A DNA stretch of 64,000 nt from assembly GCA_036874045.1 (NCBI GenBank), contig CM072343.1, forward strand, positions 6,344,001 to 6,408,000, written 5' to 3'. This document shows, one piece after another, positions 1 to 64,000 of this stretch (positions are counted from its first letter, which is position 1; each line of letters starts with the position of its first letter). The notes under the pieces were generated by a model, which did no database searches, had not been told where the DNA came from, and worked only from the letters and a program-made list of their open reading frames with translations. The position numbers and the translations under genes were made by a program. The stretch comes from Cymodocea nodosa. Lineage: Eukaryota > Streptophyta > Magnoliopsida > Alismatales > Cymodoceaceae.

Positions 1-1191
1 GTCTATTAAGGTTCTTTCTAAAATGGTATTTCCTATGGTGCATGATATAATAGGGATTCCAGGATCAGATAACTTTTTAGGAATTTGTGGCAGAAATAGG
101 GAACTACTTTGCTCAACTAAAAAGACCTTTCTAAGAACTTTTCGCTCTCTTTTCTTAGTACACCAATCATTCAAAAATTTAGCACAAGGTGGCATTTTCT
201 GCAATAGATCTAACAAAGGAATGTTAACTTGTACTTTTTCAAAAATTTCCCTAATTTTTTCTTGTTTTTCAAGTATTGTTTGTTGTAATCTTTCAGGATA
301 GGGTGCTAAAGATTTTGATTTCAAAGATTCTTTTTCTTTCATTTGATTTGTTTGATCATTTTTAGCTTCATTAGCAGATTCAGATTGTTCTTTAGTGATT
401 TCTAGATTTTCAACTATTACATTTTCCTTATCATTTTGATTTTTACTCTTATCGACCTTCATATCATTTTCATTTTGAGTTCTTGGTGGTATATCAGTTC
501 TAGATCTTAATGTTACACAAACATCTTCTAGATTTTCATTACTCTTATGATGTTTTTGTATATCATTTTCATAATTATGATCTTCAATTGTTTTTAGTTT
601 TAAAGTGCATTCTTTAAATTCTCTTGCATTCATATTTTCTTTTGGCTGTGTATTTTGCAAATTATGTAGGTTTATAACATTATAATTTTCATTGTCCTAT
701 TGCATAAGTTGTATTCTCATTGTATATTCGTCTAATGCTTTTAGTTTTCTTTCTAGATCATCTAATTTCATTGCACTCAATTTTTGATCAATTTTCATTA
801 TGGTTTTTTCAGTTTCGTAAATTATATCCTTGTTAGGTTCTGAATATGCTTCCTTATAATTTAATTGGTTGACTTCTTGTTGCTGACACATAAAGTATTC
901 CAGTTTGTCAAGGTTTTGCTCTATACTACGCTCTATTCTGTCATACCTATCCCAAATTTTCGTGTCTCTCAACATATTACACATTCTATACTAACCATCA
1001 GTTGGGTAAACTATAGGATTCTCATACTTGGCTCTATTATATTGAGGATAATTTATTTGTTGTTCATGGGATCTAACCATCTATAAACGTCTTAGTTTCA
1101 AACAGTTAGAAATGTTATGTCCTTCAAAATTGCAGAATTCACATATGCTAATTACAGGTTTTAGAAATCTTTGAGCATAAGCATATGCCAT
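1..1191 (-). pseudogene. gag nucleocapsid/spacer and start of protease, element A
   Basis: The start chosen is the ATG at 1191, which B also has. The first residues (MAYAYAQRFLKP) are followed by a CCHC-type knuckle beginning CEFC, then a long Lys/Glu/Asn-rich, probably coiled-coil spacer, and then the segment leading to the protease. The LRSG-type motif that precedes protease in plant gypsy gags is present in B near 11010 and altered here. No capsid domain lies between the PBS and the zinc knuckle. Nonsense codons and small indels break the frame, for example upstream of the intact stretch 697-984. The product would have been the nucleocapsid part of a Gag-Pol polyprotein acting in virus-like particles. 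It is not functional as it stands. Confidence 0.82.
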
Positions 1192-1280
1192 ATTCTCAAT
1201 TATAGAAGAAAACACACAACTTTGGCTATTAAAACAAAACAACTCTAACAGTTGCTTATATCAATTCAATTCAATTCAAT

Positions 1281-1298
1281 TACTCGGCAGCGGTGCCA
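1281..1298 (-). other. primer-binding site, tRNA-Asp type (mutated)
   Basis: On the minus strand this reads TGGCACCGCTGCCGAGTA. The matching sites in C and B fit the complement of the 3' end of plant tRNA-Asp(GTC). The differences here are transitions. Minus-strand DNA synthesis would have been primed here. Confidence 0.85.
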
Positions 1299-3554
1299 TA
1301 AAACTTGTTTGTGTTTTCCCAACACTACACCAGAAAAACTTGGATTTGTTACTTCTGTTTTTACTTAGTTAATTTATCTTTATGCCTATTCTTTCTTTTA
1401 GAAGTAAACAAACAACCTTTAATACAATTTAGATATTAATTCCAATTTGTACTTTAACTGCAAGTGCATAGTGTCTATTGTATCAGTGTGCAAGTACAGG
1501 TCGATCTCATAGGGAATTGCTGAAAAGTTTAGAACTGTTCGTTTGTTAACAATCAAATTTATATATTCAATAAGCTCTCCGTTGAATTACAGTTAACTCA
1601 ACGGATAAAGTTCGTTGAGTTATGGCTAACTCAACAGACTAACCTCGTGGACTTAAGTTAACTCCACGAGCCTGTCTTTTCTTTTTACTATTGCTATTTA
1701 CAGAGGAATTCGGCCAACCATTGAGCGATTCCACGGATTGTAAATAACATCAATTAAGCTCTTTAATGTTAGTAAACATTGGATTTATCATTATGCAATA
1801 CTAACATTCAGATAATTCAAACAGTAACCATTAAAATCTTTAAGTCTTTTGAACGAACCAATTTAAGTAAACTGTAAAACTAAAACAAACATAAAAAAAT
1901 TACAACACTGACAAAGATAACATTAATCATGATACAACACAAACAATACAACACTCAAATACAACATACAAACATAGATAAATTGTTTTTGGTATTTTTG
2001 TTTTAATATGAACATGGAAATGGGCGAAAGGTGAAATGTAAAGTAATCTCATTCGATAGTAAATACTTCCGACACTACTTGCAACACGATTACACCACTG
2101 AAAATTAAACCACTTACAATTCTGTCTCCTCTCCCTATAGAATTGTGAGTCCAGAATTGCAAGATAATCTTCTCTTCAACATACAGGCATCAACCCGAAG
2201 CCAAGGAAAAAGCTTTACGATCTCCTGAAATATGAGTCGGCGCTTGGTGAAAATGGCTTCCCTTCCCGCGACGCAATCACTCCTTACAATGGTTGTCAAG
2301 CACTATGTTTGGCTTGGAATCGTCCTGACATCAAGAAAGTATTCTCACAGACCTTCGATGGTTCGTGATTATGGTGGATATGGTGGTGGTAACGATGGTT
2401 GGTGTGATACTTTGGAGAATTGCCAATACTACCAGCAGAAAACTCGGTGCTCCTCCTCTGTATACACTAGTTGTCCATCGATCACACCCACACTTCTTTT
2501 TCTTCTTTTCTTTTATATTTCTTCAGTAGTAACTGCTTTTGCTTGAATGATCGGTTGGATTTCCTTCATTCATATCAATGGCGATGATTTCTTCTCCTTG
2601 CGCAATACATGCAATCGTGGTTTTTCTTCCAACTGTCTTGTTTCTGCAACCGCTATAGTGGCATATTGGAAAATAAATAGTTCGTGGAGTTACAGATAAC
2701 TCAACGAACTTTCTTCGTTGATTAACTATAAAACACATACATAAATTTAAGTAGTCGATGCTTAGGTGCATTTCAGATACTTATAAACTTAACTATTCGA
2801 TGCTCAGATGCATTTCGGATACTTATAAACTTAACTATCCGATGCTTAGATGCATTTCGGATAATTACAACTAACTCACCGATATATAACTTAAGTAAAT
2901 CTACCAAATCTCGACACGTGTCAGTAGCAGTTTAATAATAAAATACCCATTTCGGAGAGTTACAGGTCTAACTATCCGATGCTCAGATGCATTTCAGATA
3001 GTTATAGCTAACTCACCGAAAATCCACTTAAGTCACTTTACCAAAACATAACACGTGTCCACAGCTATTTTATAAATAAAAAGAGATTTCAGAGGGTTAC
3101 ACATATAACTGTCTGATGCCCAGCTGCAATTTCAGATAGTTAGAGATAACTCACCGAAAGTTCACTTAAGTCATGTATTTATGGTTTTGACACGTGTACT
3201 TTAGGAAATAATAAAATATTCTGTCAAAACATAACTATTCGGCAATATAAACATAACTATCTGATATGTTCAGTCTATTAAACTTAACTGTCTGAAATAT
3301 GTTCGGTATGTTAAACATAACTGTCTGAAATATCAGAAAATTTAGATACTTAAGAATTTCACAGCCTGACTCTTATCGACAATTCAAAAATGTACTAAAT
3401 TGACATTAATTCCCCAAAATTAAGCAGATTCTTCAATTAAAGCATATAATAGTACAATTATAACATAATGGCTTAATTCTCATATGATAAGCTAAATATT
3501 ATGCAATTAACCATCATTTAACCGTTAATAATATGCACCTTTTCATTCTAAACA
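1299..3554 (-). repeat. 5' LTR of element A (about 2.25 kb)
   Basis: The LTR starts with TGTTTAGAATG at 3554 and ends a few bases before the PBS. It aligns with the LTRs of B, C, D and E. The U3 part (about 2690-3340) contains imperfect tandem units of roughly 130-140 bp. Each unit has a CACGTGTC box and inverted-repeat arms (TAACTATCCGA/TCGGATAGTTA type). Extra units explain why it is longer than the LTR of B. The 3' LTR is outside the window. Confidence 0.88.
2510..2517 (-). promoter_or_regulatory. LTR TATA box, element A
   Basis: TATAAAAG on the minus strand, at the same LTR position as in B, C and D, followed by an A/G-rich leader. It probably sets the start of the genomic RNA about 30 bases downstream. 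Confidence 0.65.
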
Positions 3555-6500
3555 CTGATCAACATCACCTGCAAAATCTGAATCAAAATATCCAGCCATA
3601 CTACAGTTATGTTTAACACCATAAATCAGTCCTACATCAGACGTGCCCTTCAAGTACCTAAAGATCCTTTTCACGGCCTGCCAATGACTCTTCCTAGATT
3701 TGACATAAATCTGCTTACAATACTAAGAGGGTAAGCAAAATCCGGATGAGTACAAACCATGGCATACATAAGACTACCAACTACCTGTGAATATGGAACT
3801 TTCTTCATGTACTCCTTTCAGATTGCGTTTGAGGTGCCATAGCAACTGATAATCGCAGGTTCCTATCGTAGGGCGTTCCAATGGCCTTGTTTAAAGCCAT
3901 GCCAAACCTGCTCAAAATCTTCAGAACATAATTGTGCTAATGGAGAAATAATCTTCCAATGTTCCTGTCACGATAAATCTCCATCCTAAGGATTTTACGT
4001 GTCGGTCCTAAATCCTTCATTACAAATTCAGATTTCAATGTGTCTTTCAAAACCTGTATTTCATTGACATCTTTGGCTGCAATCAAAATGTCATCCACAT
4101 ACAAGAGCAAGTAAACAAATTCTTCTTTAATTTGTTTAATATAGACACATGAATCAAAACTACTTCTATCAAAACCAACATCAGTGATAAAAGAATCAAA
4201 TCTTTTATACCACTGCTTGGGAGACTGTTTCAGCCCATACAAAGATTTCTGTAGCTTACAAACGAGGTCTAATCTACCTCTTTTTGCAAAACCTGTTGGC
4301 TATTCCATCTAGATGTCCTTATCTAAATCACCATGCAAGAAAGTTGTTTTCACATCCAACTATTCAAGTTCTAAATCCTTTACTACAACAATTGCCAAAA
4401 GGACTCGAATGGAGGTGTGTCTAACTACCAGAGTAAAGACTTCATTGAAGTCCACACCCTCCTTTTGTGAAAACCCTTTTGCTACCAATCTTGCCTTGTA
4501 TTGTATTCCAAGGTTGCCTTGCGTTCTTGATTTCCTTTTGAACACCCATTTGCAACCAACATCATTCCTATCTTTGGGACGTTTTACTAACTCCCAAGTC
4601 CTATTTTTATGCAAAGATTGTAGTTCTTCTTGCATAGCTCCCAACCTATGTACGGCTTCTGGTCCGCTAATGGCAGCATCAAAACTAGGTGGGTCAGCAT
4701 CCTCCACCTCACCAACTACCTGTAGGGAAAAAGCAACCATATTATTGTAGCCATACCTCTGTGGAGGGTGAACATCCCTCCTAGGATGATCTCTGGCAAC
4801 ACACCTTGAACGTGTGTCCTCAACAAATTCATCTCCTCGATCATCTCCTAAAATCAAACGTTGATCTGTATCAACAGGAACAGACTGATTAGATGTCAAC
4901 GGTTGATTCAAATCAAGCTCCATTTGCTCAGGAGTACTAGGTGGATCCAAAACAGTGGTTTTTCTTTCTTATGCATCAAAGAAACTTCATCAAAGGTAAC
5001 ATCCCTGCTATGAATGACCTTCCTTGTTTCTTTATCATATATTCAATATCCTTTTACTCCCATTCCATATCCCACAAAGATGCCTTCCTTGGCACGTGGC
5101 TCCAATTTACCATGATTCACATGGTAATACGTAGGACATCCAAATACTTTCAATTTGGAATAGTTAGTCGCTTTATCCATCCATACTTCATAAGGGATCT
5201 TGTCGCCAATTGCATTAGATGGCGACCTATTCACCAAATAGGAGGCTGTGTTAATAGCTTCAGCCCAAAAACATTTTTCCAACCTAGCATGAGAGAGCAT
5301 ACACCTAGCTCTCTCCAACAACATCCTATCAAGTCATTCTGCAACTCCATTCTATTATGGAGTTCCCTTGACAATATAATGCTTAGTTATGCCTGCATCT
5401 CTGCAAAAAATGTCAAATTCATTTGAGCAAAATTTTAATCCATTATCTGTTCTCAAGTATTTTACTTTCCTCCCTACTTTGTTTTCAATAATAGCCTTCC
5501 ACTGTTTAAAGTTCTTGAACGCCTCACTCTTATGTTTCATAACGAAAACCCAAGTCATATGACTAAAGTCATCAACAATGGAGAGAAAATACTTAGAACT
5601 TACTAAAGAGGGTTGTTGAGATGGTCCCCAACAATCTACATGGACATAATCCAACTTCCCCTTGGTAGAATGTTCTGCTCTTCCAAAGGAAACACGTTTC
5701 TGTTTCCCATAGATACAATGCCTACATAAATCAATATCTGTAAAGATATGACCATCTAACCTGCTAAGTGTGCTGAGCTTCTACATTCCCTTTAGTCCTA
5801 AATGTCCTAACCTGGAATGCCAAATAACTGACATAGACTGTTGATCACTTATTGTCACAACTGCTGATCCAATGATAGGTTTTCCCTGAAGAATGTATAA
5901 AGGTCCATCCTTGATTCCCTTCATTACTACTAGGGAACCTTTCAAAACATGAAGTTTACCTCCTCCACCTAAAAAACTAAAACCTTTCTGATCAAGAGCC
6001 ATTAGTGAAATAAGGCTTTTGCCCAACCTTGGCACATGTCAAACATCCTCCAAGACTTTGATCGTCCCATCATGCATCCTGAATCTGACAGATCCAACAC
6101 TTGTTCTGTCACAAACATCATTATCTGCTAAAGTGACCTGTCCACCATCTACCTCCTCATATGTATGGAAATATTCTCTATTGGGAGTCATATGATGTGA
6201 TGCACTAGAATCCATAATCCAACTCTGATCGGAGTAGACACTATAGCATACAGTAAGGGAGAAATCACAGTCAGACCCTGAGTCTCCATTTTCAGCAACT
6301 ATTGCATTTCCCTTATTCTTCAATTTAGGACAGTTTACCTTCCAATGCCCCTTTTCCTTGCAATAATTGCAAGTGTCCTTGGAAATTCTACCTCTGGACT
6401 TACTTCTGCCTCTACGCCTATTGTCTCTTCTACTCTGCCATCCTCTAAACTCTGAATGATGCACTGTCAAACCTAATCCACCAGCATCATTGCTACCATG
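3555..6500 (-). pseudogene. copia 1 gag zinc knuckle-PR-INT-RT-RNase H
   Basis: Read right to left. The gag CCHC knuckle (CNYCKEKGHWKVNC) is near 6350 and is preceded by an Arg/Ser-rich stretch. The aspartic protease site DSSASHH is near 6210. The integrase core lies at 5355-5654 and includes DNGLKFCSNEFD. Integrase C-terminal sequence with a SPSNAIGDKIPYEVW stretch is at 5043-5324. A connecting region rich in Pro/Asp and the first RT blocks (CKWVFKRK) are at 4360-4950. The RT YVDD box is in 3937-4242, and the start of RNase H runs down to 3555. Frameshifts and nonsense codons (often TAG) separate these blocks. The lineage resembles Tnt1/Tork rather than Sirevirus, because the VKDLELEQLDVK-type wording differs from copia 2-5. 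Confidence 0.87.
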
Positions 6501-8340: not shown

Positions 8341-10205
8341 TGTTTAGAATGAAAAAGTGCATATTATTAACGGTTAAATGATGGTTAATTGCATAATATT
8401 TAGCTTATCATATGAGAATTAATCCATTATGTTATAATTGCACTGTTATATGCTTTAATTGAAGAATCTGCTTAATTTTGGGGAATTAATGTTAATTTAG
8501 CACATTTATGAACTGTCGGTAAATTGCAGGCTGTGAAATTCTTAAGTATCCGAAAATGCATCTAAGCATCGGATAGTTATACCTGTAACTCTCCGGAATG
8601 TTATTTTATGTTTAAACTGCTGCAAACACGTGTTGAGAGCTAGTAGATTTACTTACGTTATAACTCGTTAAGTTAGTATAACTACACGCGTTGAGTTACA
8701 TGAAAATACACTAAGGCAACGCGTTAGGTCAGCGTTATAAACTTAAGTTGTTATTTTTGCATGTGTTTTATAGTTAAATCAACGAAGGAAGTCCGTTGAG
8801 TTATCTGTAACTCTACGGACTATATATTTTCTAATATGCCACTATAGCGGTTGCAGGAACAAATAGTTGGAAGGAAAAACCACGTTTGCACGTATCACAT
8901 AGGAATTCAATCGCGTAGGGAGAAAGAAATCATCGCCATTGATTTGAATGAAGGAAATCCAACCGACCATTCAAGCAGAAGCAGTTACCACTAAAGAAAT
9001 ATAAAAGAAAAGAAGAAAAAAAGAAGAAGAGTGTGATCGATGGACGACCAGTGTATACAGAGGAGGAGCACCAAGCTTTCTGCAAACAGTATCGGCGATT
9101 CTCCGAAGTATCACACCAACCATCGTATCACCACCATAATCACCAATCATCAGAGGTCTGTGAGGATACTTGCCTGATGTCGGGTCGATTCTAAGCCAAA
9201 CACAGTGCCTGACAACCACTGTGAGGAGTGATCGCGTCGCGGGAAGGGAAGACATTTTCACCAAGCGCCGACTCATATTTCAGGAGATAGTAAAGCTTTT
9301 AGCCTTGGCTTTGGGTTGATGCCTGTATTCTGAAGAGGAGATCATCTTGCAATTCTGGACTCGCGATTCAATAAGAAGAGGAGATAGAATTGTAAGTGGT
9401 TCAATTTTTAGTGGTGTAATCGCGTTGCAAGTAGTGTCAGAAGTATTTACTGTCAAGAGAAATTACTTTACATTTCACCTTTCACCCATTTCCATGTTCA
9501 CATCAAAACAAAAATACCAAAAACAATTTATCTTTGTTTGTATGTTGTATTTGAGTGTTGTATTGTTTGTGTTGTATCGTGATTAATGTTATCTGTATCA
9601 ATTTTATGATTGTTTTATGTTAGTTTTAATTTTACAGTTTACTGAAATTGGTTCGTACAAAACAACTTAAAGATTTTAATGGTTACTGTTTGAATCATCT
9701 GAATGTTAGTATTGCATAATGATAAATCCAATGTTAACTAGCATTAAAAAGCTTAATTGATGTTATTTACAATCTGTGGAATCGCCCAATGGTTGGCTGA
9801 ATTCCTCTGTAATTAGCAGTATTATAAAGAAGAGACAGGCTCGTGGAGTTAACTTAAGTCCACGAGGATAGTCCGTTGAGTTATCAATAACTCAACGAAC
9901 TTAGCTCGTTGAGTTAACTGTAAATCAACGGAGTGTTTATTGAATATAAATTTGAATTATTCACAATCAAACATTTCTTAAATTCGTCAGTAATTCCCTG
10001 TGGGATTGACCTGTACTTGCACACTGATACAATAGACACTGTGCACTTGCAGTTAAAGTACAAATTGGAATTAATATCTAAATTGTATTAAAGGTTGTTT
10101 GTTTACTTCTAAAAGAAAGAATAGGCATAAAGATAAATTAACTAAGTAAAAATAGAAGTAACAAATCCAAGTTTTTCTAGTGTAGTGCTGTGAAAACACG
10201 AACAA
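8341..10205 (+). repeat. 5' LTR of element B (about 1.87 kb)
   Basis: It begins TGTTTAGAATG directly after copia 1 gag and ends just before the PBS. The 3' edge is uncertain by a few bases: CA at about 10205, or directly at the PBS. It has fewer U3 tandem units than A, C or E. It has a TATA box at 9000. The U5 part near 10005-10065 carries the TGTACTTGCACAC and GTGCACTTGCAG blocks seen in all copies. Hairpin arms at 9874-9883 and 9888-9897 form a perfect 10-bp stem with a 4-base loop. Confidence 0.88.
9000..9007 (+). promoter_or_regulatory. LTR TATA box, element B
   Basis: TATAAAAG, at the same place in the LTRs of A, C and D, about 660 bp from the LTR start and followed by a purine-rich leader. 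Confidence 0.65.
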
Positions 10206-10211
10206 GTTTTA

Positions 10212-10229
10212 TGGCGCCGTTGCTAGGGA
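10212..10229 (+). other. primer-binding site, tRNA-Asp type
   Basis: TGGCGCCGTTGCTAGGGA is complementary to the 3' end of plant tRNA-Asp(GTC) apart from a two-base change that C does not have. This primer is typical of the Athila lineage. Confidence 0.88.
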
Positions 10230-10328: not shown

Positions 10329-13300
10329 ATGGCATATGCTTATGCTCAAAGATTTCTGAAACCTTTAATTAGCATATGTGAATTCTGCAATTCTGAAGGA
10401 CACGACATTTCTGATTGTTTGAAATTGAGACATTTACAGATTGATAGATCCCATGAACAACAAATGAATTATCCTCAATATAAAAGAGCCGAGTATGAGA
10501 ATCCTATAGTTTACCCAACTGATGGTCAATATAGAATGTGTAATATGATGAGAGACACTGAAGTTTGGGATAGCTATGACAGACTCGAGCATAGTATAGA
10601 GAAAAATCTAGACAAACTAGAATACTTTGTGTGTCAACAACAAGAAGTCAACCAACTAAACTATAAGGAGGCATATTCAGAACCTAAACAGGATATAATT
10701 TACGAAATTGAAAAAGCTATAAAGAAAATTAATCAAAAATTGAATGCAATGAAATTAAATGATCTGGAAACAAAATTAAAAGCATTAGATAAAAATGCAA
10801 TGAAAATACAAGTTTTGCAACAGGACAATGAAAATTATAATGTTATAAACCTGCACAACTTGCAAAATATACAACAAACAGAAAACACAAATGTAAGAGA
10901 ATTTAAAGAATGCACTTTAAAACTAAAAACAATTGAAGATCATAATCACGAAAATGATATACAAAAACATCATGAAAGTAACGAAAATCTGGAAGATGTA
11001 TGTGTAACTTTAAGATCTGGAACTGATATACCACTAAGAACTCAAAATGAAAATGATATGAAGGTGGACAAGAGTAAAAATCAAAATGATAATGAAAATG
11101 TAATAGCTGAAAATCTAGAAATCACTGAAAAATAATCTGAATCTGCAATTGAAGCTAAAAATGATCAAACAAATCAACTGAAAGAAAAAGAGTCTTTGAA
11201 ATCAAAATCTTTAGCACCCTATCCTGAAAGATTACAACAAACAATTCCTGAAAAAAAAGAAAAAATAAGAGAAATTTTTGAAAAAGTACAAGTTAACATT
11301 CCTTTCTTAGATCTATTGCAGAATATGCCACCTTGTGTTAAATTTCTGAAGGATTGGTGTACTAAGAAAAGAGAGCGAAAAGTTCTTAGAAAGGTCTTTT
11401 TAGCTGAGCAAAGTAGTTACCTATTTCTGCCACAAATTCCTAAAAAGTTATCTGATCCTGGAATCCCTGTTATATCATGCACCATAGGAAATACCATTCT
11501 AGAAAGAACCTTAATAGACATAGGTGCAGGTATAAATGTTATGCCAAGTGATATATTTGCATCCTTAGGATTAGAAGGCTTAACTCCTACTAGTACGGTT
11601 ATTCAATTGGCTGATAGAAGTATAAGATACCCTAGAGGAAAAATAGAGGATGTCTTAATTAAAATCAAGAATTTTATATATCCTATTGATACTGTAATTT
11701 TGGATTCCCAACAAATTAAGCATAAAAATAGTGATACATCTTTAATTTTGGGAAGGCCATTTTTAGCAACATCAGGGGCTATTATAAATTGTAAAACTGG
11801 AGTAATGAAATTAGCATATGGTAATGAGGATACTCAATTAAATATTTTTAAACCAGAAAGGTTTGAGGAGTTAGAAATGTCCTTACATACCATAGACTTT
11901 TTAGAGGATGAAGGAGATATGTTAGATGATGTGATTCAAGAAGAATTAAATAGGCAAATCAATTTTGAAACTTTAGAAGAAAGTGAAAGCATAAATATAG
12001 AAGGAGATCAGGAAGAAATTAATTTAAAAAATGATGATGTTCAATTAGGAGCTCTAGCTTCTGATGGGCAGCATTTAGAATTAAAACCTTTACCTCCTGA
12101 ATTAACCTATATATTTCTGGAAGATAAACGGACCTATCCAATCATTATTGCTTCAGATTTGAAAGAGGATCAAATAGCTAAATTAAAAGAGGTAATAAAA
12201 AGTTATAAAGAAGCAATAGGATGGACTATGACTGATATAAAAGGGTTAAGTTCAACTTTATGCTGTCACCACATATATTTAGAAGAGAATGCTAAACCTG
12301 TTAGAATTCCTGAGAGGAGATTAAATCCAAACTTTAAGGAAGTAGTCAGGAAGGAAATAGTTAAATGGTTAGATAATGATATAATATATCCGATTTCTGA
12401 TAGCTCGTGGGTTAGTCCAATCCATGTAGTTCACAAGAAATCAGGATTAACAGTTATTAGGAATGAAAGTCAAGACTTGATACCTACTAGAATTCAATCA
12501 GGCTGGAGAGTATGTATAGACTATAGAAAGTTAAATGTTGTGACTAGGAAAGATCATTTTCCCTTACCTTTTATAGATCAAATGCTGGAAAGATTAGCAG
12601 GGCAAGAATATTTTTATTTCCTAGACGGGTATTCTGGGTATAATCAAATTCTAGTAGCATTAGAGGATCAAGAGAAAACAACTTTCACCTGTCCTAATGA
12701 AACTTATGCTTTTAAAAGAATGCCATTCAGATTATGCAATGCACCAGCTACCTTTCAAAGGTGTGTGCAGGGCATATTTACTGGAATGACTAATGAATTT
12801 TTAGAAATATTTATGGATGATTTTACTGTATATGGCAACTCATATGAAGTGTGTTTAAGCAATTTAGACCAAATATTAAAATGCTGTGTGGAAAAAAATC
12901 TGGTTTTAAATTGGGAAAAATGTCACTTCATGGTTAAACAAGGAATAGTCTTAGTGCATGTTGTTTCTAAAAAAGGGTTGGAAGTAGATAAAGCTAAAAT
13001 AGAAGTAATTTCTAATCTACCAGAACCTAAATCAGTAAAAGATATTAGATCATTTCTAGGACATGCTGGTTTTTATAGAAGATTTATTAAAGACTTTAGC
13101 AAGATAGCTAGACCTTTAACTAATCTATTAAAAGATGTTCCATTTAACTTTGATAAAAATTGCAAGGAAGCATTTTTTAGACTTAAGACTAGCTTAATTT
13201 CAACTCCTATAATTCAAGCACCTAATTGGAACCATCCATTTGAAGTAATGTGCGATGCTTCTGATTTTGCTGTAGGAGTAGTGTTAGGACAGAAAATAGA

Positions 13301-14975
13301 AAAATCTCCTAGTGTGATTCATTATGCAAGCAAAACCTTAAATGATGCTCAAGTTAATTACACAACTACTGAAAAAGAATTATTAGCTGTTGTGTTTGCT
13401 TTAGAAAAGTTTAGATCATATTTGATTGGAGCTAAAGTAATAGTATACACGGAGCATTCAGCTCTAAAACATCTAATAAAGAAAAAAGAAACTAAACCTA
13501 GATTGATCTGATAGATATTATTATTGCAAGAATTCGATCTAGAAATTAAAGATAAAAAAGGTTGTGAGAATGTAGTAGCAGAGCATTTATCAAGATTACA
13601 AATAGAAAAATCAAATATTGAAATTAAGGATAATTTTCCTGATGAACAGTTAATGACCATCAACACAATGCTTTGGTATGCAGACATAGTTAATTACTTA
13701 GTTACTGGTTTAACACCTAAGGATTGGAATAGACAGGATAAGAAATTGTTTTTCTCAAGAGCAAAATATTACTATTAGGAAGACCCTTACTTATATAAGA
13801 AATGTCGTGTTCTGGTTTTAAGGAGGTGTGTTCCAGAAACTGAATATTCGAGCATATTGTCTTTCTGTTATGACCAAGCTTGTGGAGGACATTTTGGTTC
13901 AGGGAAAACTACTGCAAAAATTCTGCAATATGGGTTTTATTGGCCAACACTATTCAAAGATGCTCATAAATATTGCTTAAGTTGTTTAAGATGTCAACAA
14001 ATAGGAAGAATATCAAAGAGGAATATGATGCCTCTTAATCCTATTGTTGAGGTTGAAATCTTTGATGTGTGGGGAATAGATTTTATGGGTCCATTTCCTA
14101 TATCTAATCAATTTAATTACATATTGTTGGGAGTGGATTATGTATCTAAATGGATAGAAGCTATTCCTACAAAAACTAATGATAACAAAGTGGTAATACA
14201 ATTTATAAGAACAAATATATTTGCCAGATTTGGAATACCTAAAGCTATTATCAGTGATAGAGGAACTCATTTCTGTAATAGAAGTTTTGAAGCCTTAATG
14301 AAGACATATGGAGTAAATCACAAAATTGCAACATCATATCATCCGCAAACAAGTGGACAAGTAGAAAGTGCAAACAAACAAATTAAATTAATCTTGGAAA
14401 AAGTAGTAAGTCCTACTATAACAGATTGGGCTAATAGATTGATTGATGCACTTTGGGCTTATAGAACTGCTTATAAAACGAGCTTAGGTATGTCACCTTT
14501 TAAGCTAGTATATGGAAAAAGTTGTCATTTACCTACTACAATAGAACATAAAGTTTATTAGGCATTAAAAACTCTGAACACTAATTTAAATCAAGCTACT
14601 GAAAATAGGAAAATGCAACTAATTGAATTAGAGGAATTTAGAAATGAAGCTTATTCAAAGACTATAAGAGAAAAAGAGAAAATGAAATTCTAGCGTGATA
14701 GAAAAATTATTCCTAAAAACTTTGAAATAGGACAAGAAGTATATCTTTATATGGCTAGACTCTATAACCATCTAGGAAAATTAAGATCTAGATGGGCAGG
14801 ACCTTACATAGTTCGAAATGTTTATCCTTATGGAGCTATTGAAATTGAAAATCCTAAAAATCAGAATATATTTAAAGTAAATGGACAAAGACTTAAACCT
14901 ATTCTGAAAACACCAAAAAGCTTCTTTGGAATTATAGAAGAAATCAGAGTAGAGGACTACTCGAGTTTTACTTAG
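10329..14975 (+). pseudogene. element B gag(NC)-pol: zinc knuckle, PR, RT, RNase H, INT
   Basis: One reading frame of 1548 codons from the conserved ATG at 10329 (the upstream ATG at 10251 is not shared with C). Order: zinc knuckle CEFCNSEGHDISDC, coiled-coil spacer, TLRSG motif near 11010, protease with catalytic DIGAG at 11517, RT with FMDD at 12810-12821, RNase H to about 13620, then integrase with DDE residues (GIDFMGPF, IISDRG, SGQVESANK) and a C-terminal GPY-type segment. The only damage is six nonsense codons: TAA 11132, TGA 13509, and TAG at 13512, 13776, 14559 and 14691. Comparison with C shows they replace Gln, Arg and Trp codons by transitions. The first His of the integrase zinc finger is Tyr here. 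There is no capsid domain. Confidence 0.93.
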
Positions 14976-16063: not shown

Positions 16064-17200
16064 TTAAGAACATGATTGAAAAGTAAAAACAAATGGAATA
16101 AATGTGTTGGTCCAAGCAAACTTTTTAGGCATAATTCTTCTTGCTATTAATTTTGTTTTAATGTAGTTCGTGTTCCTTCTTAATTTGTAAACTTGCAATA
16201 TATTATCAATGCTAAATACAAGTGTATTACCATTAATGAAATGAAATGCAGAAAGGAATCCTTTTCGGTTCTAGGATAATGTAATAGTTTCTATTTCTAC
16301 ATCTATTTCAATATATTCCTCTTCCTACTTCCATTCATTTATGTCTTTCATGATCCATATTTGAAATTTCATCAACTCATCCCACCATCTTATCAGACAT
16401 AAAGTAGGATCATCATATTCATTATACTACATCCCTATTTGAATTTTATCAAATTCTATAGATGGTGGTTTAGCTATTTCTCTTGGTATAGGCAAAATTT
16501 CTATATATTCATCATAACTATCTATGCTTACTACGTATAAATCAGATCTAAATGCAACTGATATATCTGTGACTAGATATATATATCCATCAAGTATGAC
16601 GTGCATGCTGTTAATTAATGATTTCTGTCCTAGATATATCATAGTGTTTTCAATCCAAGATCTATTTAGAAAATTATACACACTCAAGTATAAATCTTCA
16701 TCCCATTTTCCTGTAGGTCTCTAGTAATATAATTTTTCAGGAATGGTCAAATTTTTATCAGAAAATATTGAAGCCGACCCACAATTTTCAGTTGGTACTT
16801 CATGTCTATTAGGTCTTCCTATATTCCATTCTTCTCTTATGATAGGATTTCTGATCAAAATATCAGGTAATAGAATTGCATACCTTGGTTTGGTCCTGTA
16901 TATAATTAATCATTCATCCATCCCCATAATATGATCTATTCCTTCTAATGTATTGGGTGGAATTCCAGTAGTTTCTTCCATATTCAGATATTCATGGCTA
17001 ATTGAACTATGATTAAATGACTTCCATATGAATCCATCTCTAATCTTAGTCATTTTTGCAGCTTGTAGTCCATGAAAATATTTTTCTCTAACACAGTCTT
17101 TAATTTCCTTTGATACACAACACAACCTACATAGATCTTTAGCTGACAAGTTACTTAGTACTTCCCTTAGTGCGTCCAGCGGTAATTGTATCAATTCCAT
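16064..17200 (-). pseudogene. F-box protein gene carried by element E
   Basis: A colinear frame of 378 codons from the ATG at 17200. The N-terminus has an F-box (residues about 5-45: LPLDALREVLSNL, KDLCRLCCVSKEI), which in plants binds SKP1 in SCF ubiquitin ligases. The remainder resembles an F-box-associated substrate-recognition region, with a Trp-rich segment (LIRWWDELMKFQIW) near residue 270. Intronless, and without indels relative to the copy in D (50071-51162). Nonsense codons: one TGA (16910-16912) and several TAG, of which codon 160 (16721-16723) is TAG in both copies. It lies 186 bp downstream of gag on the same strand. It was probably captured from a host F-box gene; the F-box call is firm and the C-terminal family is uncertain. 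Confidence 0.85.
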
Positions 17201-17386
17201 TTGTTAATTCTATATAACATAAACAAAAATTTTAATAGAGACAATAATTAACATAACTATTGCACACTCTCGTGGAGTTAGGGCATAACTCAACGAACTA
17301 AGTTCGTTAAGTTAAGGACTAACTCTACGATACTATTAACTACAAATAAACTTATATATATATATAGTTACTTCAGTTATACTGCT
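17201..17386 (-). promoter_or_regulatory. gag/F-box spacer with inverted repeat, E
   Basis: Contains TAACTCAACG (17286-17295) facing CGTTAAGTTA (17305-17314), outer arms of GTGGAGTTA type, and a TA-rich run at 17351-17366. D has the same arrangement at 51230-51300. It may be a promoter or processing signal for the F-box gene; that function is inferred. Confidence 0.5.
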
Positions 17387-18730
17387 TCATTCAGCCACCC
17401 TCCTAGAAGAGGTATCAATTTCATTAACAGTTCTATTGACAGGGTTAGGTATTGCTTGTATTGGCAATCCTCCAATAGGTCTAACTTCCATTGATTCCTT
17501 CTATCTAAGCGGTATGTTTCTATTCTAATTTTGAATTGCAGCATTTCCAAATACAAGATCTAGACGATTGTTTAATTGTTGGATTATCTTTTCTAATTTC
17601 TCTATTCTAGATCATTGTTCTATTAATGCTTCATAACTTATATTCTTGTCATTTATATTTTCTCCTCCTTGGAAATTGTTGTTTCTCCAAGATAAATTCG
17701 GGTGATTTCTCCAATTAGGGTTATATGAATTTCCAAAGTTATCTTTCTAGTTTCTAGCATAAATAATATCTAGATCGTTAATGTTTGCATTCTTTTCTGC
17801 TAGTTTTTAATTTAATGATAACTCTTCTATTTTCTTTGTTAATTTAGTTAATTTCACTTCAAGCATAGTACTTGAATCTATTTCATGCATTCCCCTTGGT
17901 AATATTCTTTTATCTGCAATAACTTCAGCCGAGTTTTCCCACTGTGTAGTTCTTTTTGCAAAGTTTTCTAAATATGCCCATGCTTCTTCACTACATAGTT
18001 TCAGAAATCCATTTTGACAAGTAGATTCTATTAAAGATTTTGTTGAAACATCTATGCCTTCATAAATTATACCTATTAATTGTGCTTTACTCATTGCATG
18101 ATGTGGACATTGAGTTAGTAAATCTTTAAATCTTTCAAAATATTTCCAGAATGATTCACCTTGTTTTTGACTACACATTAATATTTCTTTTTTCTTTTTA
18201 ATCATTTTATGTGTTGGATAATATTTTTCCAGAAAAATAGAGCAAAATTTAGTCCATGTAGAAATTGAATCAAGTGATAGAGTATATAACCATCTCTTAG
18301 CTTTGTCTTTTAAAGCAAAAGGGATATATCTAAGTTTAATAGCATCTATACTCATGTTCGGCATTTTCATCATTTGACAAACTTCGTTAAATTCTCTAAG
18401 GAAATATTAGGCATCCTCTCTTTCTAATCCATGAAAATGTGGCAATTGACTAATATAATTAGATTTCAGTTCAAACCTATCTCCCTCAAAGTTTGGCAAT
18501 CGAATACATGAAGGTTCATCAACTAATTCAAGGTACAGAATTTCTCCTAATGGTTTTCCTACTAGAGCAGCCATATCTATGTTCTCTTTTAAAGAAAGGT
18601 TAGCTACACCCCTAAGGATTTCATTAAAGTCCAATTTAGAAAATGTTTCAGTTTGCCTCTGTGTTGAATACTCCTAGGTAGGTGTTCTTACTAATCGTTT
18701 AATGCTAAGAGAATGAATCCATGTGCTCAT
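17387..18730 (-). pseudogene. Retrotransposon gag (capsid type) without zinc knuckle, E
   Basis: One frame of 447 codons from the ATG at 18730. Residues about 80-200 match the plant gypsy Retrotrans_gag domain (FELKSNYISQLPHF, IKLRYIPFALKDKAKRWLY, then QGESFWKYFERFKDL). A NPNWRNHPNLSW motif near residue 340, typical of Athila-type gags, and a coiled coil follow. The usual CCHC knuckle between capsid and the NPNW motif is absent. Damage is nonsense only (TAA at 18407 and 17807, plus TAGs). The gene lies downstream of pol and the env ORF and just before the F-box gene, not next to the PBS. It would form the particle shell. Confidence 0.86.
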
Positions 18731-19640
18731 AAATAAAATAGCAGATGATTAATTACATACCAGTCTGAAGCTTTCCATTCAGTAAATATTTGTTGACGGA
18801 TGAAGTTGAATCAACTGCTTCTCCTTCCAGTTCCCCAACGCATTCTCCTTTCTTTCAAAAATGCTGGTAACTCGTAAATAACATTCTGTTCTATATATAT
18901 AATGCACATCCATAAAGTAAATAAATCTCGTTGCAAGAACATGTCTTGTAACATGCAGCGTGGTTCCTATTTTTATAGATACGTGTACCACTACTAATTT
19001 CAAATTTTGGTAACCACTAAGCTGACGAAGTTTCATTCGTGGTTAAAAGAATAACCGTTCTGCTTAATCCACGAACTAACCTCGTTGAGTTATTTGTAAC
19101 TCAACGGAACAACATCGGTTACTGTTGCTAACTCCATGGACTAACTTAGATTTAGTCAAACATTTATCCTTTAAGTCCTGTAAAAACTCGAACACTTATC
19201 CTTTAACTTTTCAAGTTTTTGCACCTACAAAACACGTGACTAAACAAAGAAATTTATCTATTCGTTAGTTCTTTTATAAAACTCGAACAATTATCTATCC
19301 ATGCGTATCAAAACTCAAACAGTTATCTAACTATTCGATTTTTCATTACCAAACGCACCTGGAAACCACGTGACAACTTAAAACATTAAAAACACACATG
19401 TAGATAACTTAACTATACAAGTTTTTAACATAAAGTATTCAACAAAAATGAGACGTTAACTATCCAAAAGTTTAACTATCAACGGAGTGACCTTGTATTA
19501 TATTACTGGCCTCGTGGAGTTAAATTTAACTCAACGAACTTACTTCATTGAGTTAACACTTGGCAACCTCTAAGTCTACTCCTCGTAAGTACCTCTATGT
19601 TTTTTCTCTCTCCTACACTCTGCTAACTGAAATAAAGTTA
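18731..19640 (-). promoter_or_regulatory. putative internal promoter and leader for the 3' gag gene, E
   Basis: In gag orientation: inverted-repeat motifs (a perfect 10-bp stem, 19083-19092 with 19097-19106), two CACGTG boxes (19233-19238 and 19367-19372), a TATA box TCTATAAAAATAGG at about 18967-18979, a leader of about 200 bases, then a donor-like CTG/GTATGTAAT at 18761/18760, 30 bases before the gag ATG. No LTR ends and no PBS are seen, so it looks like an internal promoter rather than another LTR. Activity is inferred. Confidence 0.5.
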
Positions 19641-20006
19641 AATACATGTCATTAATGCAACATTCTAATCAAAATTCGTTTAAATTTGAACATTCTATAA
19701 ATATTTAACTTGTAGTTCATTTCATGTTATGCAGAATTTACATTTTACCTTGTAGCATGTAGATATTTTCAAGCATCTATTATTTAATCCTGTCATTCAG
19801 TAAATTGTAAATCTTTTTTAACATTCATGCATAATGTTCCACAAATTATATAACATTCAATATAGTTCATCCATATCATTATTCTAAACACGCATGAAAA
19901 ATATATCTGAAAAACATATGTTCATTCATATGAATAAATTACAGTACAATCAAATCAGATATTTTTCATACAAATATATACAAGTACAAGTAGACAAACT
20001 ATACAA
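19641..20006. other. AT-rich spacer, nothing recognised
   Basis: AT-rich sequence following the env-position ORF of E. Its part nearest 20006 matches the end of element C after 63916, which shows the two elements are colinear there. No gene or repeat is recognised. Confidence 0.5.
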
Positions 20007-21255
20007 TTAGCCTCTATTCCTAAGTTCATCTACTTCCTTCTAGAGTTTTTCTATTTGTTACTCTAATTGTTCTATCCTTTCTACAACTACAATAATGCCT
20101 CCAGAAGGTATAGATACTTCAGTTGCAGCATAATTTCTATATTCTTTCACTGAAATGGTTCTTGATCTTATCCTTTTGGATGTCCATTTCGTGAAATCAA
20201 TACAGTCTACCATCAATATAGGTATCAAATCTCCATAAAATAATTTCTTCTTTGCAGACTTCATTTTGGATAGGAAGACTTGACACCAATTAACTTGAAT
20301 TCTATTCACAACTGCATAAGTGGCCCATTTGACAAATTGACTCAGTTCAATGTCATGGCCCTGTTGTTGGTAGACATTTTTAATCAAAATGTTAGCTATC
20401 ATGTGTGCTTTACCATTTAAATGCTTCAGTCTATTTAATAATGGCACACCAGGATTGATAGCCAAACTGTCCTTGATTTCCTGCTCTGTCCATTCAACGA
20501 TAGTTGTGCTTACCAAAATTTCTTTTCCTTCATTCTTCAATCCAAAAATGTTGTGGAGAAGCTCTAGTGTTATCTGTACATCAGCTTCCTCCATGTTGAA
20601 AATTAATTGTCTTTCTTCTTCTCTTAAATTAGCATAAAAGCAAGGCACTAGATCATCATATATTGCATGACCTTTCTACTAAGAAATAAATTGTAGTAGA
20701 CCCTAGAACTCAAATAATTCTTTGATTTCTTGCATTCTGTCCCAATTTACTGGTCTACTGTATATGATATCATAACCCCTAATCTCTTGGTATTTATTAT
20801 AAGCTTCCTAACTCTAAAAGTGTACTTCATTCAGAACTGTTGCTTTAGTCGGGTCAGGAATGTGACTTTGTTGTTCTAGAGGGGTTTGTTCTTGATCTTC
20901 CTCTTTCATAGGTTGAACTTGAACTTCCTGAAAATGTTCTACAGATTCCTGAACATTTGCTTCTACTTTTGTCTGTGGTGGTGAGTCGACAGAACTCTCC
21001 ACTCTGTCTTGAAGTGTTTCATTAAATTCAATTGAATCTACAAAGTCATTTTTGTCTATATGGCTTTGTTCAGCTTCTTGTTCATTATTTGCTCTTTCTT
21101 CTTCCTCCTAACTACCAATCTGCATTGTCATTGTTCTTTCTGATTCTTTGGCAGATTGGGATGGAGTCACGGGCAATTCAGTTTCTACCCTATTTTCTAT
21201 TTCTTCTTCTTGTACAGGCTGTAGACTAATAACCACATTTCCCGAACCAACTCTT
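20007..21255 (-). pseudogene. env-position 3' ORF, element E (N-terminus deleted)
   Basis: Same protein as in C (61715-63916) but lacking roughly the first 330 codons; the spacer joins directly to the acidic region. The visible order is a Glu/Gln-rich segment (about 20814-21002) and then a conserved C-terminal domain (20058-20648) with LLHNIFGLKNEG, GHDIELSQFVKWATYAVVNR and KKLFYGDLIP. It resembles the 'putative plant transposon protein' family (from memory). The same domain occurs 3' of pol in copia 3 and copia 4. No transmembrane segment is seen, so 'env' refers to position only. It ends at TAA 20007-20009. In-frame stops are present. Confidence 0.78.
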
Positions 21256-21658: not shown

Positions 21659-22014
21659 CTAAGTAAAGCTTGAGTAGTTCTCTACTCTTACTTTTTCTAT
21701 AATTCCAAAGGAGCTTTTTGGTATTTTCAGAATAGGTCTAAGTCTTTGTCCATTTACTTTAAAGATATATTGATTTTTAGGATTTTCAATCTCAATAGCT
21801 CCATAAGGATAAATATTTCGAACTATGTAAGGTCCTGCCCATTTAGATCTTAGTTTTCCTGGATGGTTATGGAGTCTAGCCATGTAAAGATATACTTCTT
21901 GTCTTATTTCAAAGCTTTTTGGAATAATTTTCCTATCATAGCAAAATTTCATTTTCTCTTTTTCTCTAACAGTCTTCGAATAAGCTTCATTTCTAAATTC
22001 TTCTAATTCAATTA
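21659..22014 (-). pseudogene. integrase C-terminus, element E
   Basis: The last 100 or so residues of the Athila-like integrase, with the GPY-type segment (KWAGPYIVRNIYPYGAIEI ending FKVNGQRLRPIL). It ends in the same TAG as B and C. The upstream pol is gone: at about 22014 the sequence switches directly to the middle of the LTR. Confidence 0.88.
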
Positions 22015-22016
22015 AG

Positions 22017-22877
22017 TAACCGCTACAGTGGCATATTAGAAAATAAATGGTCTGTGGAGTTACAGATAACTCAACGGACTTGCTTTGTTGATTTAACTAT
22101 AAAACACGTGCATAAATTTAACCATCCGATTCTTAGGTGCATTTCAGATACTTACAAACTTAACTATCTGATGCCTAGATGCATTTCAGATAGTTACAGA
22201 CTTAACTATCCGATGCTCAGATGCATTTCGGATAGTTAGAGATAACTCACTAATATATAACTTAAGTCAATCTTCTAGATCACGACACGTGTCATCAGTA
22301 GTTTTATAATAAAGAAATATTTCGGAGAGCTACAAGTCTAACTATCTGATGCCTAGATGCATTTTGGATAGTTAGAGATAACTCACTGAAAATCCACTGT
22401 CATTCTTCCAAAACATGACACGTGTCATCAGCAATTTTATAATAAAAGGAGATTTTGGAGAGTTACACATATAACTATCCGATGCCCAACTACAATTTCA
22501 GATAGTTAGAGATAACTCACCGAAAGTCTACTTAAGTCATGCATTATGGTTTCGACATGTGTACTACAGGAAATAATAAAATATTCCTTTAAAGCATAAC
22601 TGTTCGGTAATTTAAACATAACTCTTCGGTACATTAAGCATAACTGTTCGAAATAACAGAAAATTCGGATACTTAAGAATTTCACAGCCTGCAATTTACC
22701 GATAGTTTAGAAATGCACTAAATTAACATTAATTCCCCGAAATTAAGTAGATTCTTTCATTAAAGCATATAACAGTGCACTTATAACAAAATAGCTTAAT
22801 TCTCATATGATAAGCTAAATATTATGCAATTAACCATCATTTAACCATTAATATTATGCACTTTTTCATTCTAAACA
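22017..22877 (-). repeat. 5' LTR fragment of element E
   Basis: The first 860 bp of the LTR (TGTTTAGAATG at 22877), including U3 tandem units with CACGTGTC boxes and TCGGATAGTTA arms. It is truncated in the segment AACCGCTACAGTGG before the TATA box. The right side abuts copia 2 gag. Confidence 0.88.
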
Positions 22878-30960: not shown

Positions 30961-31004
30961 AAACATAACTTTAAAATTAATATAATTAACTCAAGGAGAA
31001 TAAA

Positions 31005-46290: not shown

Positions 46291-48156
46291 TTGTGAAAAG
46301 TTAAATCATAAACTTGTTTATACAGTAGTGTTAGAAAACTTGTTTAATTTGTTTTTATGCTTATATAAATAATTACTTTTAGAAGTAAACAAACAACCTT
46401 TCACACAAATTAGATATTAAATCCAATTTGTATTTTTAACTACAAGTGCACAGTGTATATTGTATTTGTGTGCAAGTACAAGTCAATTCCATAGAGATTG
46501 AGTAAGAATTGTGTACTATTTCAATTTTTATATTGGAGTTTATATGTATTCAGTCAAGCAGTCCATTGAGTTACAGTTAACATAACGGACCTAGTTCGTG
46601 GAATTATGGTTAACTCAACAGACTAACCTCGTGGACTTAAGTTAACTCCATAAGCCTACCTTTCTAGTTAAATACTACTATTTATAGAGGAATTCAGCCA
46701 ACTATTGGGCGGTTCCACAGAATGTAAATAACATCAATTAAGCTCTTTAATGTTAGTTAATATTAGATTTATCATTAAGCAACACTAACATTCAAATATT
46801 TCAAATAATAACCATTAAAATCTTTAAGTATCTGGAATGAATCAATTTCAGTAAACAATAAAACTATTTTCTATTTTCTGAATCAAATAAACATAAAACA
46901 TTCACAATACTGACAATGATAACATTAATCACGATACAAAACAAACAATACAACACTTTAATACTAAATGTAAACACAGATAATTTGTAGTTTTTGGTAT
47001 TTTTGTTTTGATATGTTCTTGAAGATGAACGAAAGGTGAAATGTAAAAATCTCTATCGACAGTAAAAACTTTCGCCACTACATGCAATGCGATTACACCA
47101 CTAAAATCTTAATCACTTACAATCTTGCCTCCTCTCCTTATAGAATCGTGAATCAAGAATTGTAAGATGATCTCCTCTTTAGCATACTGGCATCAACCTG
47201 AAACCAATGCTAGAAACTTTACAATCTCCTAAGATATGAGTTGGTGCTTGGTGAAAATGGTTTTCCTTCCCGCAACGCGATCACTCCTCATAGTGGTTGT
47301 CAGTCACCATGTTTGGCTCGGAATCAACCCGACATCAGGAAAGTATCCTCACAAACCTCCAATGGTTGGTGATTTTTGTGGTGGTGTGGAGCTTCAAGGA
47401 ACTTCTGACGCTTCCTGCAGTTAGCGTAGTTCTCTACCTCTACACACACACCTTCTTTGTCTTTCTCCTCTTCTTTTATATTTCTTTCTGTAGTAACTGC
47501 TTCTACTTAGATGATCAGTTGGATTTCCTTCATTCATATCAACGATGGTGATTACTTCTTCATTCCACGAGTCAATTCCTACATGATATGTGCAACCATG
47601 GTTTTCCTTCGACTTTCCTATTTCTGCAACTACTATAGTGGTATATTAGAAAATAGATGGTCTGTAGAGTTATAGATAATTCAACGGACTTACTTTGTTG
47701 ATTTAACTATAAAACACATACAAATAAAGAAATAACTAGTTCAGATATTTTAGATACTTACAAACCCAACTATCCGATGCTTAAATGCATTTCTGATAGT
47801 TAACAGATAACTTACCGAACACTCACTTAAGTCATGCATTATAGTTTCAACATGTGTACTACAAGAAATAATAAAATATTCTTTGATCGTTAAAAACATA
47901 ACTGTCTAGTACATGCAATATAACTCTCCGAAATAATAGAAAATTCGGATACTTAGGAATTTCAAAGCTTGTATTTCACGACAGGTCAGAAATATACTTA
48001 ATTAACGTTAATTTCTTGAAATTATGTAGATTCTTTTATTAAAGCATATAATAGTGCAATTATAACATAATGACTTAATTCTCATATGATAAGCTAAATA
48101 TTATGCAATTAACCATTATTTAATCGTTAATATTATGCACTTTTTCATTCTAAATA
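46291..48156 (-). repeat. 3' LTR of element D (about 1.87 kb)
   Basis: The 5' edge (TATTTAGAATG, first motif mutated) is at 48156, right after a polypurine tract, which identifies it as a 3' LTR. It aligns with the LTRs of A, B and C through U3, TATA and U5. The 3' edge near 46291 is uncertain by about 20 bases, where copia 5 RT resumes. Confidence 0.85.
47473..47480 (-). promoter_or_regulatory. LTR TATA box, element D
   Basis: TATAAAAG on the minus strand, at the same LTR position as in A, B and C. Confidence 0.6.
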
Positions 48157-48170
48157 CTTCCCCCCTACTT
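48157..48170 (-). other. polypurine tract of element D
   Basis: AAGTAGGGGGGAAG on the minus strand, directly adjoining the LTR start, as required for plus-strand priming. Confidence 0.85.
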
Positions 48171-49088: not shown

Positions 49089-50070
49089 ATTAAATGTATG
49101 TTTGATCCTATGTATTACTTTGATCCTATGTATTTCATTTAATCCAAAAATCAACATTTTAGCTCTTTCAGGATTTCAGATAATTTACTGAATTTCAATT
49201 AAGCCTTCTGATTTCTTTCTAAAATTGTGAAACTATTAAACTCATAAAATTCAATAAAAACATAAGATACTATATCCAGATTTGTATTAATAGTAAAATT
49301 TTGTAGCATCTTATCTAAGATTCTAAATATAACATTCAAGTAGTTACAATTCTTAAAAATTTGATAGTCTCAATTATCGGAAAGTTACAGCAAATTCATA
49401 AAAAAAAAAATTTCAATTTTAGTTACCATAGAAATTTGCAGCACCATTCTAATTCCTCTAATTAATAAAATTATTTGGCTTTTAATCTAATTACCTCCCC
49501 CCCATACCTACATTTTGTATTGTCCTCAATGTAAAAGATTTTACAGTAAATACAGTAATTGTTAGCTAGCATGTGTATTGTTTTGTTGACTTAGCACCTA
49601 ACTCAACAAACTTAATTTGTTGAGTTAATGAATAACTCCACGAATTGAGTTTAAATGTAAATTCAAGATAAGTAATCAATTGCATACCTTGTTCTTTTGT
49701 ATCCCCTTCAACATCTTTTGACTTTTGATTCTGAAAAACTTTTCATTCACAATTAAAAGTAGAATATATAACAAAATAACATTTAACAATAAAACATAAA
49801 TTGTTAATTCAGTGTCTTGTGTGGAACCTAGGCTCTTATGCCTTTGGTGGCTCACAAGCAAGCTAGTTGGTTTCCTAAAACAGATACCAACAAACTAGAT
49901 TGATATATTGTTTTTTCTTTTCTTTTCTTTTTATAAAATAAAACAAAAATAAAATTTTTTCTTCCTTTTCTTTTCTAAAAATAAATGTAGATTACACAAC
50001 ATTAAAAGTACAAAATCACAATTTAAGAACATGATTAAAAAGTAGTAACAAATGGAATAAATGTATCAGC
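49089..50070 (-). other. 3' flank of the F-box gene, element D
   Basis: The part 49480-50070 matches E 15594-16063: a block with GAGCCACCAAAGGCATAAG, a donor-like AAG/GTATGC (49688/49687), TTGTTGAGTTA/TAACTCAACAA arms and ACATTGAGGACAATACA before GGGGGGGAGG (minus strand). The part 49089-49480 is AT-rich with no recognised feature. Confidence 0.55.
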
Positions 50071-56373: not shown

Positions 56374-56379
56374 GTTTTA

Positions 56380-56397
56380 TGGCGCCGTTGCCGGGGA
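56380..56397 (+). other. primer-binding site, tRNA-Asp
   Basis: TGGCGCCGTTGCCGGGGA, a full match to the complement of the 3' end of plant tRNA-Asp(GTC), as known for the Athila lineage. Confidence 0.92.
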
Positions 56398-56493
56398 ATT
56401 GAATTGAATTGCATTGAATGGATTTAAGCAACTGTTAGAGCTGTTTTGTTTTAATAGCTAGAGAGTTGTGTGTTTTCTTCTGTAATTGAGAAT

Positions 56494-63916: not shown

Positions 63917-64000
63917 AGTGTATTATTCGTCTACTTGTATAATTGTATGAAAATGCATGATGTATTTGTAATGTAAATTGATTCATATTAATGAATATAA
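63917..64000 (+). other. 3' flank of env-position ORF, element C
   Basis: AT-rich and colinear with E below 20007, so the element continues beyond the window. Confidence 0.6.

Follow-up and report, generated by a model that had tools for sequence, protein, structure and literature searches.

The window analysed here, a 64-kb stretch of DNA, holds five copies (A–E) that we read, with a probability of roughly 0.6, as one Athila-like Ty3/gypsy family whose Gag is divided and permuted. Pieced together from overlapping copies (C, from LTR to env; E, with part of the LTR, the end of integrase (INT), env, capsid (CA) and F-box; and D, with PR-RT, CA, F-box and LTR), the complete element would carry, in order, 5' LTR, PBS, a frame of zinc knuckle-PR-RT-RNase H-INT, an env-position ORF, a capsid frame, an F-box frame, a polypurine tract (PPT) and 3' LTR. 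This gene order is probably new, and we infer how it would work. There is an even chance, in our judgement, that the lineage places NC first in Pol and encodes CA in a separate 3' cistron with an mRNA of its own, followed by an F-box protein that may counter silencing.

Five copies of one family in the window

Self-BLAST of the window, which contains both Ty1/copia and Ty3/gypsy elements, resolved the five copies as members of one Ty3/gypsy family; the relatives with a named organism come from flowering plants, and this content marks the window as plant DNA. Copy A (8341 to ~15109, plus strand) is truncated. Copy B (1..3556, minus strand) comprises a 5' LTR, a CCHC zinc knuckle, the NC frame and the start of the protease (PR), and runs off the left end of the window, while copy C (54338..64000, plus strand) extends from its LTR and PBS through the zinc knuckle, PR-RT-RNase H and INT to env-position ORFs and leaves the window rightward. 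Copies D (54337 down to ~46302) and E (22877 down to ~15594) lie on the minus strand. Read in that direction, D consists of PR, RT, RNase H (its start only), a joint or deletion, CA, F-box, a further 1.9 kb, a purine tract and an LTR; E consists of the first part of an LTR, a deletion, the INT end, remnants of the env-position ORF, a 1.3-kb spacer, CA and F-box. Every copy has stops or frameshifts within its visible part.

Copy C adjoins D in opposite orientation, at a position inside D's protease, and was probably inserted there; D's own 5' end would thus lie outside the window. The remaining PR-RT-RNase H start of D (52442..54337, minus strand), cut by C at 54337, is 90% identical to positions 11476–13376 of A. 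Both D and E are without their 5' coding ends, and none of the five copies in the window combines a zinc-knuckle-first 5' end with a 3' CA.

The LTRs start with TGTTTAGAATG in A, B, C and E, and with TATTTAG in D. The 5' LTR of A (8341..10205, plus strand; 3' end approximate) was delimited by self-BLAST, an LTR profile and its sequence. The 3' LTR of D (46302..48156, minus strand; 3' end approximate), found with the LTR profile, is 78% identical to the LTR of A and 81% to that of C. In E, BLAST and the LTR profile identified the 5' part of an LTR (22017..22877, minus strand), which a deletion joins to the INT end; local BLAST pieces of this LTR are 77–93% identical to A, B and C and 81–82% to D, the end-to-end comparisons (58% to A, 69% to D) being upset by internal repeats.

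Zinc knuckle and capsid at opposite ends

The PBS TGGCGCCGTTGC follows the long LTR in A (10212..10229, plus strand) and in C (at 56380); the exact sequence was looked for in B and not found. We take it to be of the tRNA-Asp type, as in Athila elements. The coding frame downstream in A (10329..13511, plus strand), delimited by ORFs, Pfam RT and RNase H matches, the CCHC pattern and alignment, runs from the zinc knuckle through a spacer, TLRSG, PR and RT to RNase H, with a single in-frame stop (11133–11135). Integrase comes next in two frames (13779..14975, plus strand), with PF00665 and PF17921 matched on 13779–14561 and a C-terminal frame at 14694–14975. The order PR-RT-RNase H-INT is that of Athila-type Ty3/gypsy elements, PR having been assigned through alignment to relatives, with no Pfam protease match.

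An earlier note on this DNA had claimed that the coding frame of A, B and C opens at the zinc knuckle and that no capsid fits before it, and our results bear out both points. The CCHC pattern was found at 10377 (A), 1143 (B) and 56542 (C), and was matched nowhere in D or E. In A, about 100 nt separate the end of the PBS from the first ATG of the frame (10329), and the CCHC lies about 150 nt past the PBS. An alignment of the 5' frame with seven relatives, CA being present in five, began at the zinc knuckle. A capsid profile built from 73 relatives and run on each copy with filters off revealed no hidden 5' CA in A, B or C (best domain scores 3.9, 1.6 and -2.1 bits), the best stretch in A and B being the zinc-knuckle columns of the profile. 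Over the whole window, the same profile placed capsid in D and E only (independent E ≤ 0.1).

The capsid gag of E (17387..18673, minus strand) comprises CA and a C-terminal part, and scored 288.9 plus 52.3 bits with the CA profile in the whole-window search (best domain 288.1 bits in the per-copy run). Its frame, 18673–17387, has several in-frame stops and an ATG (MAALVG) at 18574; a stop-free piece (17807–18406) matches Retrotrans_gag (PF03732, E = 3.4e-20), and the pattern CX2CX4HX4C was not found in this gag. It lies downstream of the INT end and of the env-position ORF, just as the earlier note had described for a capsid-type gag that lacks a zinc knuckle. By eye, a candidate 88-nt intron was seen upstream of it (18760–18673). 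The corresponding gag of D (51374..52441, minus strand; CA profile and Pfam Retrotrans_gag) likewise has no CCHC and is frameshifted, its gag match spanning 51378–52437 and its CA profile pieces scoring 110.5, 107.3 and 49.7 bits (best domain 109.7 bits in the per-copy run). The same note had placed D's gag directly before the F-box gene and the 3' LTR; the order is correct and the LTR belongs to the same family, but "directly" is a loose term, with about 1.9 kb between F-box and LTR.

The model of the 17807–18406 piece of E, built with 27 sequences (pLDDT 87.6, pTM 0.64), is helical and has no strands. The best six Foldseek matches were capsids of Arc, PNMA2 and dArc (probability 0.89–1.00); HIV CA and Copia came next, and Ty3 CA stood in tenth place. 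No Foldseek match to the CA model reached E ≤ 0.001, and the TM-scores of the best six were 0.28–0.37. A sequence search of the PDB returned no capsid, only two unrelated chains (E of 0.035 and 0.081). We regard the predicted match to a capsid fold as supportive only.

The two halves of Gag are complementary, A, B and C holding the parts that D and E are without. The CA match in D and E skips profile columns 268/270–307, which are the zinc knuckle in the relatives' consensus, and it stops at columns 426–428, beside ITLRSGK, whose TLRSG point is kept by the 5' frame. This pattern also bears on another idea, in which the 3' CA is an extra gag copy, complete members keep a 5' CA, and A, B and C belong to a sublineage from which it has been lost. 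D and E have no 5' coding ends, so a second CA could have been present there; however, the 3' CA carries no zinc knuckle, which is what one would expect if that part came from the other half of Gag. A too is without a 5' CA, and its NC dS to B and C (0.24 and 0.19) is close to the dS between the CA regions of E and D (0.24). We consider an extra copy improbable.

Between INT and CA, E retains the C-terminus of integrase (21659..22014, within a frame at 21659–22096, minus strand; 85.5% over 497 columns of 21519–22014 against A 14620–15101) and remnants of the env-position ORF (20010..21230, limits approximate, with an ORF at 20058–20675, minus strand). This ORF, a feature of Athila-type elements, is found in C (61793–63883) as well as in E; E 20043–20750 and C 63173–63880 share 79% protein identity, and the ORF of C has a weak, below cut-off match to PF20167 (22 of 45 bits). 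Two more env-position ORFs, at 28997–29629 (minus strand) and 41979–42596 (plus strand), share 31% and 36% identity with the one in C, and beside them no match was found to the family's RT or INT queries or to the CA profile. The spacer between env ORF and CA in E (18690..20007, minus strand) contains no LTR or PBS that we could find. A piece of it (19391–19480) matches 43447–43534 (82% over 90 columns), about 850 nt downstream of the second of these ORFs (41979–42596), which ties the spacer to the env side. The arrangement env-spacer-CA is seen in E alone, and a 3' CA in two copies, D and E, with different deletions.

Downstream of CA, an F-box frame is present in both D (50065..51162, minus strand; PF00646, E = 7.5e-05) and E (16112..17200, minus strand; PF00646, E = 8.1e-12), at 82% protein identity. 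The two share a TAG after 159 codons (50683–50685 in D, 16721–16723 in E). A search for the source of this gene yielded none among 1630 candidates at E ≤ 0.001. A splice-acceptor-like TTATATAG was noted by eye ahead of the F-box ATG in D and E. In D, the polypurine tract AAGTAGGGGGGAAG (48157..48170, minus strand) borders the 3' LTR. A second purine-rich tract occurs after the F-box on the minus strand of both copies, GGTATGGGGGAGAGG in E (~15600–15620) and GGTATGGGGGGGAGG in D (~49490–49510), the latter about 1.3 kb ahead of the PPT. Part of D's F-box-to-LTR region (48433–49162) is 77% identical to 30901–31635, beside a copia element. A hairpin-like motif (GTTGAGTTA / TAACTCAAC) occurs in 29 exact copies in the window, against 0.68 expected, in the family's LTRs and near its INT/env, env/CA and CA/F-box boundaries and past the F-box (e.g., 9875–9916, 17286–17294, 19084–19105, 49599–49627 and 61445–61506), and also outside the family (e.g., 7326–7366).

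Origin of the 3' capsid gene

The thresholds applied assigned both CA and PR to 47 of the 159 relatives fetched. CA preceded PR in all 47, with a zinc knuckle between them in 37; these are entries of a protein collection, in which the order of separate ORFs is not visible. Among the 73 gag relatives, 45 had the CCHC pattern and 23 had LRSG, and where both were present CCHC came first (10/10). The Athila-type gag order, CA then NC and both 5' of the protease, was not what we found in the window: A, B and C gave no CA match, and CA is 3' of pol (D) or env (E).

In trees of 25 rows, made up of the family plus 24 of those 47 relatives, one and the same clade of nine rows contained the family for CA (support 94/92) and for PR (99/98). 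In the CA tree its nearest neighbours were P0003 and P0005 (a three-row set, 100/99), the clade being drawn as open; in the PR clade P0031 was nearest by path, and the family's place within the clade was open. The family's branch is long (0.74 in the CA tree, 1.0 in the PR tree), making its placement less sure. With CA and PR in a common clade, which we presume to be Athila type along with the family itself, the 3' CA is probably the element's own displaced gag and not one from a distant family.

Substitution patterns were compared between copies. Between E and D, CA has dS 0.24, dN 0.051 and dN/dS 0.21 (0.13–0.36), and the F-box frame has dN/dS 0.32 (0.21–0.47). For the enzymes, dN/dS was 0.33 (0.24–0.48; dS 0.22) in PR-RT of A and D, 0.36 in PR-RT of A and C, 0.54 (0.27–1.20) in INT of A and C, and 0.42 (0.18–1.03) in the INT end of A and E; for the NC frame it was 0.35 (A/C) and 0.32 (A/B), and for env of C and E 0.23, with dS 0.44. 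Differences were in excess at third codon positions in CA (31, 19 and 46; p = 0.003) and env (p = 0.0003); no such excess was detected in the 3' flank of the F-box (p = 0.75) or the spacer between gag and F-box (p = 0.11), and it was weak in the NC frame (p = 0.23 for A/C, 0.02 for A/B, 0.15 for B/C). In the F-box frame, the excess was present before the common stop (10, 11 and 25; p = 0.01) and not after it (p = 0.31). As judged from these codon comparisons, purifying selection is shown for CA and for the first 159 F-box codons. With constraint significant only ahead of the shared TAG, the working F-box product may be 159 residues long.

Around CA-F-box in D and E, neither the LTR profile nor BLAST at a low threshold nor a search for repeats turned up an LTR, PBS or long repeat pair; the repeats found were short (47–65 nt) ones of the hairpin motif. 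A nested element with its own LTRs, which the earlier note had named as one finding that would overturn its proposal, is disfavoured as far as these searches reach. That CA-F-box is an unrelated element inserted into both D and E strikes us as very unlikely: nested insertions do occur in the window, as with C in D, but CA-F-box lies on the same strand in both copies, D's 3' LTR is from the same family, CA and pol have similar dS, and CA and PR share a clade.

A more serious competitor, possible but in our view doubtful, invokes two partners: (i) a CA-less NC-Pol-env element, represented by A, B and C, and (ii) a gag-giving LTR-CA-F-box-LTR element, D and E having arisen as chimeras of the two through template switching. 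When reverse transcription changes templates, orientation is preserved. The two ends of the proposed element never occur in one copy, and in D, RNase H meets CA at 52441/52442, a joint that is a deletion or a recombination. The divergence of E is uneven along its length: dS is 0.44 where its env is compared with C and 0.18 where its INT end is compared with A, so E could be a mosaic. Furthermore, a gag-giving partner has been proposed for Cereba/Quinta of wheat, as far as the parts of that report available to us go (PMC11302176). However, two chimeras with different joints would be required, and such a partner would be expected to retain a zinc knuckle. A gag-only structure, LTR-PBS-gag-PPT-LTR without pol, was not what we observed: in E there is no leader, PBS or LTR upstream of CA, and the spacer piece at 19391–19480 recurs downstream of another env-like ORF; in D, pol precedes CA. 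The LTR of D also roughly tracks its pol. It differs from those of A and C by 19–22%, against 12.5% between A and C, and the pol differences are 9.7% (D/A) and 5.3% (A/C); the LTR ratio of 1.5–1.8 and the pol ratio of 1.8 are what one would predict had the pol and LTR of D moved as one unit.

The proposal that Gag is split into a 5' NC-Pol and a 3' CA, reversing the usual order, is therefore upheld in part. The complementary halves, the 3' CA in both D and E, the single orientation of PR-RT, CA, F-box, PPT and LTR in D, selection on CA, the similar divergence of CA and pol, the shared clade and the failure to find enclosing LTRs favour it; against it, no single copy has both ends.

Possible working and comparison with known systems

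Gag-before-Pol order and the linkage of CA to NC set the ratio of shell to enzymes and couple RNA binding to assembly. If the single family with a divided Gag is real, its genomic RNA would be translated into NC-Pol, and CA, perhaps with the F-box protein, would be translated from a shorter mRNA that splicing or an internal promoter would provide. Shell and enzymes would then be under separate control, which foamy viruses achieve by making Pol apart from Gag. As part of Pol, NC would hold the enzymes to the genomic RNA, and CA would assemble around that RNA. The F-box protein might become part of a host SCF ligase, with a silencing factor as its possible target; among viruses, F-box proteins that suppress silencing exist, polerovirus P0 being one. 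A family with NC on Pol and CA apart would be a natural test of the need for CA-NC linkage, and the possible anti-host function of an F-box gene within that 3' unit would be directly testable.

The family resembles Athila-type Ty3/gypsy elements in its RT, INT, TLRSG-PR stretch, env-position ORF and PBS type, and its CA and PR belong to one clade of relatives that is presumably Athila-like; it differs from these relatives, in which CA precedes PR, in that its CA is 3' of pol or env, has no knuckle and is followed by an F-box frame. TR-GAG elements carry a gag-only coding unit in plants, whereas the CA found here, which is without a zinc knuckle, lies behind PR-RT in D and behind INT and env in E, each time with the orientation of its neighbours.

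Among the matches listed from the open literature, no title or opening of an abstract described CA lying 3' of pol in a Ty3/gypsy element. Separately, nine stretches of viral contigs fitted a pattern, and none was confirmed. In the portions available to us, one review of extra ORFs treats the gag-pol order and the linkage of CA to NC as common to LTR elements and describes env-like and antisense ORFs after pol (PMC7264820), and a plant-wide survey discarded elements with an unexpected domain order as likely mispredicted, while GAG was unidentifiable in 159 Ty3/gypsy elements (PMC6317226). Judging from that part of the survey, families such as this one could be missed by design. Retand clusters offer a likeness in that, according to the sections seen, seven of 63 lacked GAG and two more lacked GAG and AP; they differ in that sense ORFs between pol and the 3' LTR had no known protein domain (PMC11963269).

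Three further systems, each known to us from part of the source cited, separate or reorder the same components. For RLG_Cereba and RLG_Quinta of wheat, Gag is proposed to come from a partner element (PMC11302176); the likeness lies in a Gag possibly supplied apart from the enzymes, but those are two elements, whereas here there is probably one, with CA and NC parted. Foamy viruses illustrate that Pol expressed apart from Gag is workable, the enzymes then needing another packaging route (PMC3705302); there, Pol is made from a spliced mRNA and gag is upstream, while in this family it is CA that would need the extra mRNA, and NC on Pol could, via RNA, be the packaging route for the enzymes. Lastly, Gmr1-type Ty3/gypsy elements have an altered domain order with INT upstream of RT (PMC8220671); in them INT has moved, a split or displaced Gag going unmentioned in the text available to us, whereas in the family described here it is Gag that appears to have been split and moved.
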